From the NCBI RefSeq assembly GCF_017939625.1, contig NZ_JAGKTC010000001.1:1164778-1228777 (forward strand): a DNA stretch of 64,000 nucleotides. The letters run 5' to 3'. Source of the stretch: Pseudoxanthomonas helianthi. Lineage in GTDB: Bacteria; Pseudomonadota; Gammaproteobacteria; Xanthomonadales; Xanthomonadaceae. A model generated the notes under the pieces. The model was not told where the DNA came from. It saw only the letters and a list, made by a program, of their open reading frames with translations, and did not search any database. A program made the translations under genes and the position numbers. Positions 13,952 to 19,730 of the stretch are shown here, in pieces. Each line of letters opens with the position of its first letter. Positions within the stretch are counted from its first letter, which is position 1.

Positions 13952-14160
13952 ATGTCGGAAAAGGTTCAACGATTCGACTAGCCGAAGGTACGCTGGCGTT
14001 GTACGCCGTCCTTGCGGAAATTGCGGAAACGATTGCCAGATCTTGCGCGGAAGTCCGCGTGTAGAAACCCGATTGACACCCCATCGCGCGCGCCACCAGA
14101 ATCCATGTCACTGCCACGTCGGGCCCGATCGCGGTTGGGGCCGAACCAGATCTCGCACAC

Positions 14161-14496
14161 ATGCCTCATTCGCAGCCCGCCTTTTGCGCCATCTATCGCT
14201 GGCGCCTGCACCCTGGTTCCGAAGATTCCTTTGTGCAGGCGTGGTCGCGCGTGACCCAGCTACTGCGGGCAGAGCGGGGATCGCTGGGCTCCCGCTTGCA
14301 TCGCGGTCCGGACAACATCTGGTACAGCTACACGCAGTGGCCTTCCGCCGAAGCGAAAGCCGAAGGCCTCGCCCAACCATCCGTGGATCCGGAAGCCTGG
14401 CAACAGATGCGGAACGCCATCGCGGAAAGCTTGCCCGAGCTGATCCTTGAACCGATATCGGATTACCTGGCGCCGCTGCCCCGCCACGATGCCTGA
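14161..14496 (+). CDS. Antibiotic biosynthesis monooxygenase-like (ABM fold) protein
   Basis: A 111-residue protein. FCAIYRWRLHPGSEDSFVQAWSRV and the following ERGSLGSRLHRGPDN..YSYTQWPS pattern match the dimeric ferredoxin-like ABM fold found in small haem-independent oxygenases and in many proteins of unknown role. No signal peptide. It opens a run of small same-strand genes and ends GCC-TGA-C. The 200 nt before it contain no recognisable gene. The function is not known beyond the fold. Confidence 0.7.
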   Translation: MPHSQPAFCAIYRWRLHPGSEDSFVQAWSRVTQLLRAERGSLGSRLHRGPDNIWYSYTQWPSAEAKAEGLAQPSVDPEAWQQMRNAIAESLPELILEPISDYLAPLPRHDA

Positions 14497-14569
14497 CCGT
14501 TCCTTCGCAACGAAGCCGCTGGGCGGCCGGGATTGTGATGAGGGGCCAACCCAATGCATGGAGATGACG

Positions 14570-15232
14570 ATGAAAACCTGGATCCTGGCGCTCGCATTGT
14601 TTTCCGTCTCGATCGATTGCATCGCGCAGGAAAAGCCCGGCGCCTACGCGAGGATCGTGACGATCAGCCCGCACCCGGGGAAGGACGCCGAGTTCACCGC
14701 CGGGTACGAAAGGCATATCCAGTGGCACAAGAACAACAAGGATCCGTGGGCGTGGTACGGCTGGACCGTGGTCCTGGGCCCGCGCCTGGGTTACTTCATG
14801 GACGGTACCTTCGGGCACCCGGCACAGGATTTCGACAACGCCATCAAGCCTGCGGAAGACGTCGCGGACAACAACGCGAATGTAGCGCCCTACGCGGACT
14901 TCACCAGCCACGGAATCTATGAGCGCCTCGACCATTTGGGCAAGGGACCGGTCCTGCCCGACGCATCCGCCTTCCTGTTCTTGAATTCCTATCAGGTGAC
15001 CGCTGGCGAAGAAGCCAGGTTCGAGCAGTCGGTCGGCAACCTGCAGGAACCCAATTTCACCGTCTACCGGTTGAAAACCGGCGGAGATGGTTCGCGTTAC
15101 CTGCTGTTCCGGGCCGGAGACCATTTCTCCGATGCCGCCACCATCAAGGAAGTGAAGTTCGAGCGCGGGATTGTCGAATCCATGACCAGCGAGGTCTTCC
15201 GCTTTCGTCCGAGCATGAGCCATATCCCCTGA
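14570..15232 (+). CDS. Secreted protein of unknown function
   Basis: A 220-residue protein with a signal peptide (MKTWILALALFSVSIDCIAQ, cleavage probably after CIA). The mature part has a repeated pattern of the type VTISPHPGKDAEFTAGYERH and later NSYQVTAGEEARFEQSVG, suggesting two copies of an ABM/dimeric alpha-beta-barrel-like fold. There are in-frame ATGs at 14558, 14564 and 14570; the last is chosen because GGAG lies 6 nt before it. I do not recognise a specific family. Confidence 0.65.
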   Translation: MKTWILALALFSVSIDCIAQEKPGAYARIVTISPHPGKDAEFTAGYERHIQWHKNNKDPWAWYGWTVVLGPRLGYFMDGTFGHPAQDFDNAIKPAEDVADNNANVAPYADFTSHGIYERLDHLGKGPVLPDASAFLFLNSYQVTAGEEARFEQSVGNLQEPNFTVYRLKTGGDGSRYLLFRAGDHFSDAATIKEVKFERGIVESMTSEVFRFRPSMSHIP

Positions 15233-15359
15233 CAGCGGCCCGACCATGAGCCCACTTCGGCAGTCATGGCCTTCTGCATACGGCGACGACATCATTATGG
15301 AAGCAGCCAGCGCCGCTTCTCGAACAGAATTGATTCAGTCGCAAGCGAAAGGAGACCTC

Positions 15360-15800
15360 ATGGCAGTCAAGCGCATGGACAACGTCGGCATCGTGGTAGA
15401 AGACCTCGATGCCGCCATCGGGTTCTTCACGGAACTCGGCCTTATCCTCGAAGGTCGCATGCCCATCGAGGGCGAATGGGCCGGCCGCATCACCGGCCTG
15501 CGCGGCCAGCGCGTCGAGATCGCCATGATGCGCACCCCCGATGGCCACGGCCGCCTGGAGCTCTCGCGCTTCGACACCCCTGCCATCGCGTCCGATCACC
15601 GCACCGCCCCGGTGAACTCATTGGGATATCTGCGCGTCATGTTCGCCGTCGAGGACATCGACGACACCCTCGTACGACTCAAGAAGCTCGGTGCCTCGGT
15701 GGTCGATGAGATCGTCGATTACGAGAAGGTCTACCGGATCTGCTACATCCGTGGTCCAGAAGGGATCCTCATAGGCCTTGCCCAAGAACTGCCGCAGTAG
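15360..15800 (+). CDS. VOC (glyoxalase/dioxygenase superfamily) protein
   Basis: A 146-residue, two-module VOC fold: MDNVGIVVEDLDAAIGFFTELGLIL opens module 1 and YLRVMFAVEDIDDTLVRLKKLGA opens module 2, with the usual IRGPEGILIGLAQEL end. Candidate metal ligands are H/E positions in VGIVVED, GRLELSRF and the C-terminal strand, but the third position is not clear. The start follows GGAGACCTC. Cytoplasmic; substrate unknown. Confidence 0.8.
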   Translation: MAVKRMDNVGIVVEDLDAAIGFFTELGLILEGRMPIEGEWAGRITGLRGQRVEIAMMRTPDGHGRLELSRFDTPAIASDHRTAPVNSLGYLRVMFAVEDIDDTLVRLKKLGASVVDEIVDYEKVYRICYIRGPEGILIGLAQELPQ

Positions 15801-15916
15801 AGTGGGCGCCCGCCACTTGGCGTCGCTCCGTGGCGGGAGCCTTGTCAGGCTCGAACTCATGGCTTGCAGCAGTACACTTGCCGGGTTCGGCGTTGGTTGT
15901 AAAAGTCCCGGGTGGG

Positions 15917-15977
15917 ACCCCACAAATCGTTCAAGCCGAAGCCGTTTCCCGGCTTGACTCAATTCAGGCGCCAGACG
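15917..15977 (+). other. attC-like site 1 (integron cassette boundary)
   Basis: Contains AAATCGTTCAAGCCG, an 11-nt middle and CGGCTTGACTCA, an 8-bp inverted pair (TCAAGCCG/CGGCTTGA) closely resembling the L''/R'' arms of known attC sites. It then continues with TTCAGGCGCCAGAC, where a consensus site would have GCGTTAGAC. The outer core is degenerate. It ends 4 nt before the start codon of the following small membrane-protein gene, as in cassettes. Confidence 0.5.
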
Positions 15978-15980
15978 GCC

Positions 15981-16349
15981 ATGACGGCTCTGCATGCTGC
16001 GGCATTACTGATCTTCCTCCTGGGCCTGGCGCACTCGGTCTTGGGAGAACGTTTCATCCTTGTCCGCCTGTTCCGCCGCGACAACCTGCCCAAGTTGTTC
16101 GGGGGGACCGAGTTCACGGCTCGCACTCTTCGCTTCGCATGGCACATCACGACGGTCGCGTGGTGGGGAATCGCGGTGCTGCTTTGGACGGCCGCGTCCG
16201 GCAACCCGACTCGAACATCCGTACTGACCGTCCTGGGCTATACCCTGGTCCTGTCGGGAATTCTCCCGCTCGCCCTCACCCGTGGCCGGCACCTGTCATG
16301 GCTCGTGCTCTTCCTGTCCGGCGGCCTGGTGCTGTGGTGCGCCGCCTGA
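15981..16349 (+). CDS. Small four-helix membrane protein of unknown function
   Basis: A 122-residue protein with four hydrophobic segments (about 4-20, 50-68, 76-94 and 102-120) and a charged loop (RFILVRLFRRDNLPK) after the first. Its start is directly behind one attC-like site and its stop TGA lies inside the left arm of a second, the geometry of a single integron gene cassette. No recognised domain. Confidence 0.7.
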   Translation: MTALHAAALLIFLLGLAHSVLGERFILVRLFRRDNLPKLFGGTEFTARTLRFAWHITTVAWWGIAVLLWTAASGNPTRTSVLTVLGYTLVLSGILPLALTRGRHLSWLVLFLSGGLVLWCAA

Positions 16350-16400
16350 CGATCCCTTCCGGCCTGCGCCGCCTCGCGGCCTGGCTCAATTCAGGCGTCG
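16344..16400 (+). other. attC-like site 2 (integron cassette boundary)
   Basis: The left arm GCCTGAC (16344-16350, containing the stop of the preceding gene) pairs as CGCCTGA with TCAGGCG (16391-16397), around a GCCGC/GCGGC inner stem. It shares the 13-mer CTCAATTCAGGCG with site 1 in the same orientation 428 nt away. The right core (GCGTCGAAT) is degenerate against GCGTTAGAT. Confidence 0.45.
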
Positions 16401-16417
16401 AATCGCCGGGAACCCGT

Positions 16418-16732
16418 ATGCCCACCAGAGAAGAATTCGTAGAGCACCTTTGGAAGGAAATGATCAATCCGCTGGATCAGACTTCCCGGCTCGACAACAT
16501 CATCGCCAACTGCAAGCGCCGCCCGGATGACCCGTTCGCGGAAGTGGGGCCGGCGATCGAACGCGCGCTTGCGGCCGGCGTCTCCGCGGAGGATATTTGC
16601 CTGATCATCCGCAGCACCACGTACGAAGCCGTGTTCGGCACGCTCTATGCGATCGGCGATCCTGGCGTCGACGACAACGACGTCTTCGGCCTGTACGAAC
16701 TCATGGCCACGTCCCCGAGCGCCAAGTGGTGA
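16418..16732 (+). CDS. Hypothetical acidic protein
   Basis: A 104-residue, acidic, mostly helical cytoplasmic protein (MPTREEFVEHLWKEM..., ERALAAGVSAEDICLII, DPGVDDNDVFGLYELM). No family recognised. It begins 18 nt after attC-like site 2, so it could be a second cassette gene. The start is the first in-frame ATG, with GGGAA 6-10 nt ahead. Confidence 0.6.
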   Translation: MPTREEFVEHLWKEMINPLDQTSRLDNIIANCKRRPDDPFAEVGPAIERALAAGVSAEDICLIIRSTTYEAVFGTLYAIGDPGVDDNDVFGLYELMATSPSAKW

Positions 16733-16771
16733 CTGGGACACAGCGGGGCCCAATCCATCCGAGGTGATGCC

Positions 16772-17122
16772 ATGCGCCTGGACAAAGTCTTCGCCATCAA
16801 GTTCGCCAGCCTCTATCCGCTGTACGTCAGGAAGGTGGAATCCAAGGGCCGCTCGAAGGAAGAGCTCGACCAGGTCATCCGCTGGCTGACGGGCTACAGC
16901 CCGAAGGGACTGCAACAGCAGATCGGGTCCGACAACGACCTCCAAGCCTTCTTCGCCCAGGCGCCTGCATTCAATCCGAACGCGTCGTCGATCAAGGGCG
17001 TGGTGTGCGGCGTGCGGGTGGAGGAAATCGAGGATCCGCTGATGCGGAAGATCCGCTATCTCGACAAGCTGGTCGACGAACTCGCCAAGGGAAAGGCCAT
17101 GGACAAGATCCTGCGCGAATAG
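16772..17122 (+). CDS. DUF2200 family protein
   Basis: A 116-residue protein matching DUF2200: [24 protein letters not shown] near the N-terminus, then [28 protein letters not shown] and [18 protein letters not shown]. The family has no assigned activity. It has a GAGGTGA ribosome site and no signal peptide. It sits 39 nt after the hypothetical gene and 40 nt before the NTF2-like gene on the same strand. Confidence 0.85.
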
Positions 17123-17162
17123 CCCATCCGAACCGCCGCCACACGTAGCCAGGAGACAAGAC

Positions 17163-17570
17163 GTGAATACGATGACGCAAGCCGGGATCCCCGCATTCCT
17201 GATCGAACTCGAAGACGCGTTCAACGAAGCCATGATCTCCAACGACGTTGCGCGGATCTCGCGCTGCATCACCGACGACTGGATACTGGTCACGCCGGAG
17301 GCCGGCCCCGTTCCCCGTTCGCGCATCCTCGATGTCATCGGCTCCGGCCTGCTGAGCCACGCCACGATGACCAAGGTGGCAACCCATGCGTGCGTGGCCG
17401 GGGACATCGCCTGGGTCACCGGCCGCGGCCAGAACACCGGCACGTTCGACGGAAAGCCCATGGCCGCCGACGAATACATCACCGACATCTACCGGAAAGT
17501 GGACGGCACCTGGCGCTGCATGCTGACGCATCTCACGCCTGTCGGCGGTCTGCCGCCGGGCAGTGCCTGA
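17163..17570 (+). CDS. NTF2-like / DUF4440 (SnoaL-type) protein
   Basis: A 135-residue NTF2-fold protein: FLIELEDAFNEAMISNDVARISRCITDDWILVTPEAG at the N-terminus and VTGRGQNTGTF plus ADEYITDIYRKVDGTWRC at the C-terminus follow the DUF4440 pattern. The start is GTG at 17163 with AGGAGAC 6-12 nt ahead; an ATG lies 9 nt inside. Proteins of this fold act as isomerases, cyclases or binding proteins; this one cannot be placed further. Same-strand spacing suggests co-transcription with its neighbours. Confidence 0.75.
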   Translation: MNTMTQAGIPAFLIELEDAFNEAMISNDVARISRCITDDWILVTPEAGPVPRSRILDVIGSGLLSHATMTKVATHACVAGDIAWVTGRGQNTGTFDGKPMAADEYITDIYRKVDGTWRCMLTHLTPVGGLPPGSA

Positions 17571-17635
17571 CGGTTCAATCGGGTCAACGCTGCCTTGCTG
17601 TCGAGGCATACTCCGTTGGAACCGACGAGACATCC

Positions 17636-18064
17636 ATGAAAGCCCGCATCACCGTCATCACCCTCGGCGTCGACGACCTGGATCGCGCGCTTTCGTTCTA
17701 CCGCGATGGCTTGGGCCTGGCCACGAAGGGCATCATCGGCAGGGAGTTCGAACATGGCGCGGTCGCGTTCTTCGACCTGCAATCCGGACTGAAGCTGGCG
17801 ATCTGGCCGCGCACGAGCATTTCCCACGATTCCGGCTTGCCAGTGGACCGCCCGAGCGCCACCGACCTGACCCTCGGCCACAACGTCGCCTCCCGCGACG
17901 AAGTCGACGCGGTGATGAAGCAGGCGGAAGCGGCCGGGGCGACGATCGTCAAACCGGCGCACGAAACCTTCTGGGGCGGTTACGCGGGGTACTTCCAGGA
18001 CCCCGACGGGCATCTTTGGGAAGTGGTTTGGAACCCGGACTTGCTGCCGCAGGACGACGCCTGA
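17636..18064 (+). CDS. VOC-family protein (glyoxalase/bleomycin-resistance type)
   Basis: A 142-residue VOC protein: ITVITLGVDDLDRALSFYRDGLGL opens module 1, ASRDEVDAVMKQAEAAGATIV lies in module 2, and it ends in GYAGYFQDPDGHLWEVVWNP, the classic VOC ending with the metal-site Glu. It is the last gene of the small-gene run; its stop again falls in a GCCTGAC context. Role unknown; possibly detoxification. Confidence 0.82.
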   Translation: MKARITVITLGVDDLDRALSFYRDGLGLATKGIIGREFEHGAVAFFDLQSGLKLAIWPRTSISHDSGLPVDRPSATDLTLGHNVASRDEVDAVMKQAEAAGATIVKPAHETFWGGYAGYFQDPDGHLWEVVWNPDLLPQDDA

Positions 18065-18079
18065 CGATCATCGCGGGTT

Positions 18080-18409
18080 TCAACGCGGCGGCGCAGCCAA
18101 TTCCTTCGCGCTGAGGTAGCCGTCGGCGTTCGCATCCTGTTTGCGGAACCGTGCGGCGAGGCGCTCGCGGTGTTGGGTGCGGGTGACCGGCTCGCCGCGT
18201 CCGCCGGGTTGTTCGAGCGCGGAAAGCACGCCGTCGGCGTTCCGGTCCATGCCGTCGAAGGCGTAGCTCATCCAGTCCTGGTATTCGGCCAGCGACACGC
18301 GGCCGTCGGCATCGGCGTCGATGCGCGAAAGGTAGTCGTCGGTGGTGTGGACTTGGGCCGGGGCAGGCAAGCCCAGGATCAACAACAGAAGGGAAACCAC
18401 CGCGCGCAT
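18080..18409 (-). CDS. Exported EF-hand calcium-binding protein
   Basis: A 109-residue protein with a signal peptide (VVSLLLLILGLPAPAQ) and three EF-hand loops: DADADGRVSLAE, DRNADGVLSALE and DANADGYLSAKE, each with Asp at positions 1, 3 and 5 and Gly at 6. It should bind Ca2+ in the periplasm. The start at 18409 was chosen over an upstream in-frame one because the extra codons would lie in the adjoining REP repeat. Convergent with the VOC gene. Confidence 0.82.
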   Translation of the reverse strand: MRAVVSLLLLILGLPAPAQVHTTDDYLSRIDADADGRVSLAEYQDWMSYAFDGMDRNADGVLSALEQPGGRGEPVTRTQHRERLAARFRKQDANADGYLSAKELAAPPR

Positions 18410-18418
18410 CGCGACATT

Positions 18419-18517
18419 GTAGGAGCGCCCCTCGGGGCGCGACCAGAACAAATGGCGCTGCGCGGACATTGCCGTGAGCCGGAGAATCTACGATCGCGCC
18501 CCGAGGGGCGCTCCTAC
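18419..18517. repeat. GTAG-type REPIN (GTAGGAGCGCCC family)
   Basis: Inverted pair GTAGGAGCGCCCCTCGGGGCGCGA ... GCGCCCCGAGGGGCGCTCCTAC between the EF-hand and desaturase genes (both minus). Same family as 20679 and 36439. Confidence 0.9.
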
Positions 18518-18530
18518 ACGGTGGTGTGGC

Positions 18531-19730
18531 TCAATGCGTCAACGCGTAGCCCTTCAGGCGCGCCGAATATTCCTGCAACGCGCGTACGCCGCTGCGCTCC
18601 GCCTCGATGCACCAGGCTTGCAGCTGGCGCAGGCGCTCGGCGGCGTCGTGGCTGCGCGCTTCCAGCAGAGCGGCCAGGCGCTTGCGGTGTTCGACCAGCA
18701 GCTGGATGCGCGGACGCTGGGCGACCCAGCCGTTCAATTGCTCGCGCGCATCGGGCTTGAGCCAGCGGCCGTCGTCGACCAGGCCGCGCTGCAGCTTGCG
18801 CGGCAACAACTGGCGCAGCTTGGCGCCGGCATGCGCGGCTTCTTCCTTCAGTGCCGGCACGAACACGTTGCGCTGGTAGTCGGTCATCGCCTGGAAGCGG
18901 TGCGACAGCAGCGCCTTCAGCGTGTCGGCGTCGGGCACGGCGATGTTCGGGCGGATGTCCAACTTCGGCGCCACGCGCAGCACCTTGGCCAGCTTCAGCG
19001 ATTCCAGCAGCTTGATCGCGGCCCAGCCGATGTCGAATTCCCACTTGCGCATCGAGAAGCGCGACGAGCTGGGGAAGGCGTGGTGGTTGTTGTGCAGTTC
19101 CTCGCCGCCGATCCAGAAGCCCCACGGGGTCAGGTTGGTCGAGGTGTCGGCCGATTCGAAGTTGCGGTAGCCCCACCAGTGGCCGAGGCCGTTGACTACG
19201 CCAGCGGCCCAGAACGGGATCCACGCCATCTGGATGGCCCACAGCGCCACGCCGGGCAGGCCGAACAGGGCGAAGTGCACGAACAGCAGCAGGGTCGGCC
19301 CGAAGGTCGCGAACGGGGTGTACAGGCGGCGCTCGATCCAGTCGTCCGGCGCGCCCTTGCCGTACTGCTCGATGTCCTCGCGCTGCCAGCGCGCTTCGCG
19401 GTACAGCTCCACGCCGCGCCAGAACACGTTGCCGATGCCCTTGGTCACCGGGCTGTGCGGATCTTCCTCGGTCTCGACCTTGGCGTGGTGCTTGCGGTGG
19501 ATCGCCACCCATTCCTTGGTGATCATCGACGTGGTCAGCCACGTCCAGAAACGGAAGAAGTGGTTCAGCACCGGATGGAAGTCGACGCCGCGGTGGGCCT
19601 GGCTGCGGTGCAGGTACAGGGTCACCGAGAAGATGGTCAGCTGGGTGAACACCAGCAGCGCGCCGAGCAGGCCCCACCAGCCGAATTGCAGCAGGCCTCC
19701 GGTCAGGAAGTCGGCGAGTGACTGGGACAT
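18531..19730 (-). CDS. Acyl-lipid/acyl-CoA delta-9 fatty acid desaturase
   Basis: A 399-residue di-iron membrane desaturase with the three histidine boxes HRSQAH, HRKHH and HNNHH and four hydrophobic segments. It introduces a cis double bond into membrane acyl chains using electrons from a ferredoxin or cytochrome. The last 130 or so residues (DYQRNVFVPALKEEA... to the end) form a charged helical extension not required by the core. The ATG at 19730 was chosen; an in-frame TTG lies 18 nt upstream. It is divergent from the ABC ATPase gene. Confidence 0.9.
   Translation of the reverse strand: MSQSLADFLTGGLLQFGWWGLLGALLVFTQLTIFSVTLYLHRSQAHRGVDFHPVLNHFFRFWTWLTTSMITKEWVAIHRKHHAKVETEEDPHSPVTKGIGNVFWRGVELYREARWQREDIEQYGKGAPDDWIERRLYTPFATFGPTLLLFVHFALFGLPGVALWAIQMAWIPFWAAGVVNGLGHWWGYRNFESADTSTNLTPWGFWIGGEELHNNHHAFPSSSRFSMRKWEFDIGWAAIKLLESLKLAKVLRVAPKLDIRPNIAVPDADTLKALLSHRFQAMTDYQRNVFVPALKEEAAHAGAKLRQLLPRKLQRGLVDDGRWLKPDAREQLNGWVAQRPRIQLLVEHRKRLAALLEARSHDAAERLRQLQAWCIEAERSGVRALQEYSARLKGYALTH

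Follow-up and report, generated by a model that had tools for sequence, protein, structure and literature searches.

Integron cassettes are exchangeable one-gene units traded by bacteria, and a cluster of attC sites without an integron integrase is termed a CALIN. In the window (the whole 64-kb stretch of Pseudoxanthomonas helianthi DNA analyzed here), eight small genes on the + strand (14161-18064) are flanked by an M13 peptidase gene and an opposite-strand EF-hand gene. An initial annotation had proposed that one of the eight is a single integron gene cassette, with no integrase in view. Are its borders attC sites, could they still recombine, and how many of its neighbors arrived in the same way? 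Here, we report that the locus is very probably the fossil of an integron cassette array, a CALIN in an advanced state of decay with open genes and eroded attC sites.

Methods

Sites of the attC family were sampled from the integron arrays of the same genome and of relatives with a pattern that requires the core and the pairing. The set kept held 59 distinct attC of ≤61 bp with the common arms; longer types (87-120 bp) were left out of the matrix and the model. The matrix (PWM) rests on 58 of these sites (one 61-bp site omitted), and the covariance model was built from 32 of the 59, hand-picked. For each gene of the block, relatives were inspected for attC directly beside them (on the same strand and at most about 100 nt away; tallied by eye). 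For the gene between the two sites, 57 loci were scanned with the attC model; removal of at least three duplicates of the same place left 54. In the search of the genome itself, 150 of 4379 first candidates were scored with the covariance model, so counts from it are lower bounds, and three weak matches (E 0.09 to 0.86) were not counted.

Results

Read in register with intact attC, two + strand sites of exactly 60 bp each enclose one gene:

15917..15976, + strand: site 1, decayed attC with R'' ACCCCAC and R' GCCAGAC (ungapped alignment, PWM, covariance model)
15981..16349, + strand: cassette gene for a 122-aa predicted membrane protein (by inspection; relatives between two attC)
16344..16403, + strand: site 2, decayed attC with R'' GCCTGAC and R' GTCGAAT (ungapped alignment, PWM, covariance model, cassette alignments ending at 16398)

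Site 1 agrees without gaps at 48 of 60 bases with an intact attC of the same genus (L077, 8728-8787; the best aligned of 59), and site 2 at 44 of 60 bases, likewise ungapped, with the best-aligned intact 60-bp attC of the genus. In the 64-kb window, the PWM scores them at +41.3 bits and +12.0 bits; no score above -25.5 arose in 40 first-order Markov replicas of the window. The covariance model gave 33.3 bits for site 1 (rough E 6.4e-7; only core positions 7-54 matched) and 30.6 bits for site 2 (rough E 3.8e-6; matched full length), and the third-ranked match in the window reached 14.2 bits (E 0.26). Both sites show the sequence and secondary-structure profile of the attC family, as modeled on the 32 attC of the genus, and their attC identity is far above chance. 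An attC covariance search had been suggested for this region, and the genus-built model, used in place of IntegronFinder/HattCI, found both sites. Rfam at gathering thresholds returned only tRNA and nothing for attC.

The arms quoted in the initial annotation, the common 13-mer CTCAATTCAGGCG, and the common orientation are all present in the sequence, as are the ATG (15981), 4 nt beyond site 1, and the TGA stop codon (16347-16349), which lies within site 2. The arm pairs TCAAGCCG/CGGCTTGA and CGCCTGA/TCAGGCG are likewise present and perfect but are not the canonical attC pairings once the sites are placed in register; the true L' of site 1 is a degraded GACTCAA, aligning with GGCTTAA of the intact sites.

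The canonical R-box consensus is RYYYAAC / GTTRRRY. The AAC/GTT core is missing from all four R boxes listed above, which makes sites 1 and 2 decayed rather than canonical attC. Two of seven R''/R' Watson-Crick pairs remain in site 1 and three of seven in site 2, against 5-7 in the 59 intact sites, which were pattern-selected for core and pairing. Bottom-strand folding came to -9.9 and -11.7 kcal/mol for the two sites, against -15.2 to -18.1 kcal/mol in four intact sites. Neither site folds into one long bottom-strand hairpin closed by its R boxes; the best fold of L077, one of the four intact sites, also leaves the R boxes open. Because all four R boxes lack the conserved core, both sites are probably dead and the cassettes no longer excisable. 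The earlier suspicion that the sites might be inactive relics agrees with the loss of the core, the remaining pairs, and the weaker folding.

Judged from its sequence relatives, the gene between sites 1 and 2 is an integron cassette gene. Its 122-aa product has no Pfam or NCBIfam match. The gene is patchy, with a match in 15 of the 120 genomes searched (own genome included), and a named scan placed relatives at 42 loci in Luteimonas, Xanthomonas, Alcanivorax, Cellvibrio, marine gammaproteobacteria, and beyond. Among the 54 loci scanned with the attC model, it lies between two attC at six (L016/L097, L096, L100, L133, L026, and L027) and is followed by one attC at a seventh (L030), giving 7 of 54 with an adjoining attC; the other 47 have no attC of the modeled type directly beside the gene. 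Luteimonas sp. BLCC-B24 (L133) carries a cassette that aligns with the window at the DNA level from 15909 to 16398, attC to attC, at 67.8% identity. This cassette resembles the window cassette in carrying the same gene with attC on both sides but differs in that its own attC are intact and it lies within an array, and its gene is frameshifted (two frames, protein 88% identical over 43 residues and 58% over 64 residues). Alignments with L016 (copies L078 and L097) and L100 likewise stop at 16398. The G/T recombination point of site 2 falls at 16397/16398, and similarity to these three relatives therefore stops within a base of it; decay of the R' box, which follows the recombination point, contributes to this end. 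One gene bounded by attC recombination points in the same orientation was found directly for the 122-aa gene and, for the other genes of the block, via relatives only. Alignment with attC of the genus, the covariance model, and the cassette relatives agree with the initial annotation that two degenerate attC in the same orientation delimit a cassette.

Alcanivorax limicola (L095, 6001-6363) encodes a relative of the 122-aa protein that is 83% identical, and its gene end likewise reads GCGCCTGAC; this locus gave no match to the attC model, which was built on the common 60-61 bp type only. Carriage of the 122-aa gene on plasmids was considered and is unsupported, a plasmid collection having returned one record, a distant relative (41% identical, 78% covered).

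The remaining seven genes of the block are as follows:

14161..14496, + strand: ABM-domain gene (PF03992), likely relic cassette gene (Pfam; attC-adjoining relatives)
14570..15232, + strand: 220-aa gene of the same run, no evidence of a cassette past
15360..15800, + strand: Glx1, glyoxalase-superfamily gene (PF00903), likely relic cassette gene (Pfam; attC-adjoining relatives)
16418..16732, + strand: 104-aa gene, possible relic cassette gene after site 2 (attC-adjoining relatives; no Pfam match)
16772..17122, + strand: DUF2200 gene (PF09966), possible relic cassette gene (Pfam; attC-adjoining relatives)
17163..17570, + strand: DUF4440 gene (PF14534), likely relic cassette gene (Pfam; L236 between two attC)
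17636..18064, + strand: Glx2, glyoxalase-superfamily gene (PF00903), possible relic cassette gene (Pfam; attC-adjoining relatives)

Seven of the eight block genes, the 122-aa gene included, have some relatives directly beside attC. For the ABM gene, this holds in 5 of 26 relative loci (L149, L150, L154, L158, and L164), and in L150, whose ABM relative is 91% identical, the attC lies at the stop codon. Two of 28 Glx1 relatives adjoin attC, L179 lying between two sites and L177 having one after its stop. The 104-aa gene has an attC beside 3 of 10 relatives (L143, L145, and L146; 53, 46, and 47% identical) and none beside its two closest, L138 and L139. Among the relatives fetched, attC adjoins DUF2200 at 3 of 29 loci (L206, L207, and L230), DUF4440 at 2 of 29 (L236, 83% identical and between two attC; L243, only 25% identical), and Glx2 at 2 of 24, with the site at the stop codon in L285 (69% identical). 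The Glx2 relative L292 is a partial copy with a stop, followed by a weak attC. No attC was found beside relatives of the 220-aa gene in the 18 loci scanned. For each of the seven genes with such relatives, the majority of relatives have no adjoining attC of the modeled type. The neighboring M13 peptidase, a one-gene control, had none beside any of 7 relatives, and extending five of these loci gave none either (0 of 5).

Weak partial attC traces appear to persist at two to three further gene borders:

14491..14531, + strand: left half of an eroded attC where the ABM gene ends (weak; PWM, alignment with L150 and L149)
15312..15347, + strand: right half of a decayed attC before Glx1 (weak; alignment with L179)
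17565..17603, + strand: left part of an eroded attC where the DUF4440 gene ends (tentative; PWM, anchor rank, alignment with L236)

The trace at 14491 aligns with the left half of the L150 attC and of the decayed attC of L149, at a score reached by 5 of 6000 random stretches. It is the third-best PWM match of the window (-28.6, below the best Markov replica at -25.5) and stands at chance level in the covariance model (8.8 bits, E 9.9). The trace before Glx1 matches the right-hand half of the L179 attC (1428-1486) in alignment, at a score that 6 of 6000 random window stretches also attain. The DUF4440 gene is similar to L236 at the DNA level from 17134 onward, a start that falls within the final bases of the attC upstream of the gene in L236. 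At the other end of that gene, 17565-17603 aligns with an L236 attC and is the fifth-best PWM match (-36.6), and its plain alignment is not significant (5276 of 6000 random stretches as high). When 34 GCCTGAC anchors, sampled across the window plus eight further stretches of the same genome, were ranked, the best three by a wide margin were 16344, 14491, and 17565, in that order, all at gene ends of the block. Alignment to relatives with the same control gave no convincing attC trace after the 104-aa, DUF2200, or Glx2 gene. As to the "single" cassette of the initial annotation, the 122-aa cassette is real, and the cassette relatives and border traces suggest that it is probably part of a decayed array of about seven.

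In the genus, tblastn (E 1e-4) over seven M13 peptidase loci (five of 10-16 kb, two with flanks of ≤1.5 kb) found no copy of any of the eight block genes in the vicinity of the peptidase, and it did not find the right-hand neighbors of the block there either. Since the right-hand flank is also absent, the comparison shows lack of conservation and not an empty site; no empty site could be defined in relatives when the surroundings of the M13 peptidase were read, the flanks not being syntenic. The cassette claim was to fall if attC matches were missing and gene order was conserved across the genus; the attC matches are strong and the order is unconserved at the seven loci.

Reading frames are open in all eight block genes. 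In the 11 of 13 gene pairs (from six genes) for which it was computable, dN/dS is 0.04-0.30; for Glx2, saturation leaves a pN/pS of 0.24, and an in-frame stop prevents the computation for the L133 pair of the 122-aa gene. The low dN/dS set covers seven of the eight genes, Glx2 by pN/pS alone, with the 220-aa gene outside it. These low values may date, at least in part, from the donors. GC content is 0.626 in the block and 0.659 and 0.673 in its flanks. A tentative promoter-like site (14073-14102; 10 of 12) precedes the ABM gene, and the region holds two such sites against 0.8 expected by chance.

None of the 7 TIGR02249 matches listed for the whole genome falls inside the window. The statement that no integrase is in view therefore holds for the window and fails for the genome, which has a full-length intI with a cassette array as well as scattered attC. 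The search of the rest of the genome, also suggested earlier, located this gene at C1:1682651-1683589 (460 bits; cut-off, 265); it is the only full-length one and lies about 0.5 Mb from the window locus, which is accordingly not a complete integron with intI and attI beside the array. The catalytic residues of the encoded IntI are in place by inspection. On the far side of the gene, a row of small genes runs up to the contig end; seven stretches between these array genes read N and are most probably attC, and one attC is legible. This chromosomal integron (C1:1682651-1687725) and the window locus share the 60-bp attC type, one-gene units, and a single orientation, whereas the full-length intI and the intact, legible attC are features of the former only. 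A 352-bp cassette body occurs twice in the array by the full-length intI, 100% identical (L008:15821-16172 and 18291-18642).

A second integron relic (C1:588996-591336; L002 and L009) holds an 80-residue intI fragment with an internal stop (C1:591097) and, near it, two attC of 46.0 and 66.6 bits. Further attC matches in the genome lie at C1:1323342, C1:1362279/1362724, C2:984/1449, and C2:349487. Apart from the main array, attC matches with E below 1e-8 stand at no fewer than five places in all. The two attC at C2:984-1508 stand at the very start of their contig and are possibly the far part of the main array, split by the assembly.

Discussion

With two covariance-model matches 367 bp apart and no intI nearby, the locus falls within the CALIN class under the IntegronFinder 2.0 threshold (at least two attC; PMC9024848), applied here to matches of a genus-built model. 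CALINs lie away from the main locus in about half of Xanthomonas genomes (PMC12444791). The window locus is like these in its two same-orientation attC, its cassette genes, the lack of a nearby intI, and an integron elsewhere in the genome. It differs in the heavy degradation of its attC, of which little or nothing is left at most gene borders; unlike a CALIN of that kind, the array is recognized via cassette relatives as much as via attC.

Chance similarity in GC-rich DNA, with no integron history, explains nothing about the two sites and might at best account for the weak-scoring partial traces. The ungapped alignments with attC of the genus, the PWM, the covariance model, and the cassette-to-cassette alignments all oppose it; the one with L133 refutes it for the two sites, and we regard it as next to impossible. 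A narrower reading, in which only the 122-aa cassette with sites 1 and 2 is an integron remnant and the other small genes are ordinary ones that are cassettes elsewhere by happenstance, fits the facts that just two attC stand out in the covariance model, that the 220-aa gene is without cassette relatives, that DUF2200, Glx1, and Glx2 relatives are mostly not beside attC, and that the partial traces are weak by PWM, covariance model, and alignment control. It is nonetheless unlikely: the stretches at 14491 and 15312 match genuine attC from close relatives at scores that few of the 6000 random stretches reach (5 and 6), similarity of the DUF4440 gene starts in an attC end of L236, the best three of the 34 anchors all lie in the block, and site 2 doubles as the attC border for the sequence after it.

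The remaining alternatives concern how the cassettes came here and whether they can leave. IntI might have inserted them singly at secondary (attG-like) sites, with no array displaced, a route that is compatible with a fossil array and that we hold to be somewhat unlikely. The genome does have a full-length integrase and single or paired attC at several places, and attG insertion in E. coli is mentioned in PMC12444791, but several same-orientation cassettes in a row look like an array, and repeated use of one place would be needed. That the locus is a live CALIN, its cassettes still movable in trans by the integrase of the genome, is highly improbable. Although IntI is full length with its catalytic residues apparently in place, and CALINs can be mobilized in trans (PMC12444791), the AAC/GTT core has gone from all four R boxes, pairing between them is down to 2/7 and 3/7 (5-7 in the 59 pattern-selected intact sites), and folding is weaker.

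We therefore favor a fossil cassette array. The integron integrase of the lineage would have captured the cassettes, which ended up here, away from the intact integron, after a rearrangement moved the array, after the array lost its own integrase, or by placement at secondary sites. The attC would then have lost core bases and R-box pairing, as seen at the two sites and presumed for the others, and at most borders most or all of their sequence, so that the cassettes probably could no longer be excised. The frames stayed open and, taken with the low dN/dS, suggest that the genes are probably kept under selection; they would now behave as ordinary chromosomal genes, perhaps transcribed from the promoter-like site before the first of them. 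The locus seems to illustrate well, though not for the first time, how mobile cassettes become ordinary chromosomal genes; the extent of attC loss with genes still open seems less usual.

We raise only tentatively, and would not bet on, the generalization that attC-stripped arrays are a common, overlooked end stage in which cassettes turn into permanent chromosomal genes as their attC rot. If it holds, some of the small genes regarded as "ordinary" in integron-bearing lineages would be former cassettes that escape attC-based tools, and this locus would display the decay series in one place, its border traces running from almost complete to absent. Cassette counts usually rely on attC; as seven of the eight genes here have cassette relatives and only two attC are recognizable, the permanent contribution of integrons to chromosomes may be underestimated. 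The strategy used here (relatives beside attC, and similarity ending at recombination points) could be applied genome-wide.

In the genus, intI exceeds the cut-off in 26 of 38 genomes, the one studied here included. Two genus genomes (G037, L040/L056; G035, L031/L057) have two intI each over the cut-off, perhaps reflecting a second integrase lineage: the higher-scoring copy reaches 478 or 506 bits and the other about 375 bits. The EF-hand protein next to the block (window 18083-18469, - strand) resembles lanmodulin (37.7 of 135 bits) and XopAW (34.7 of 120 bits) at scores below threshold.
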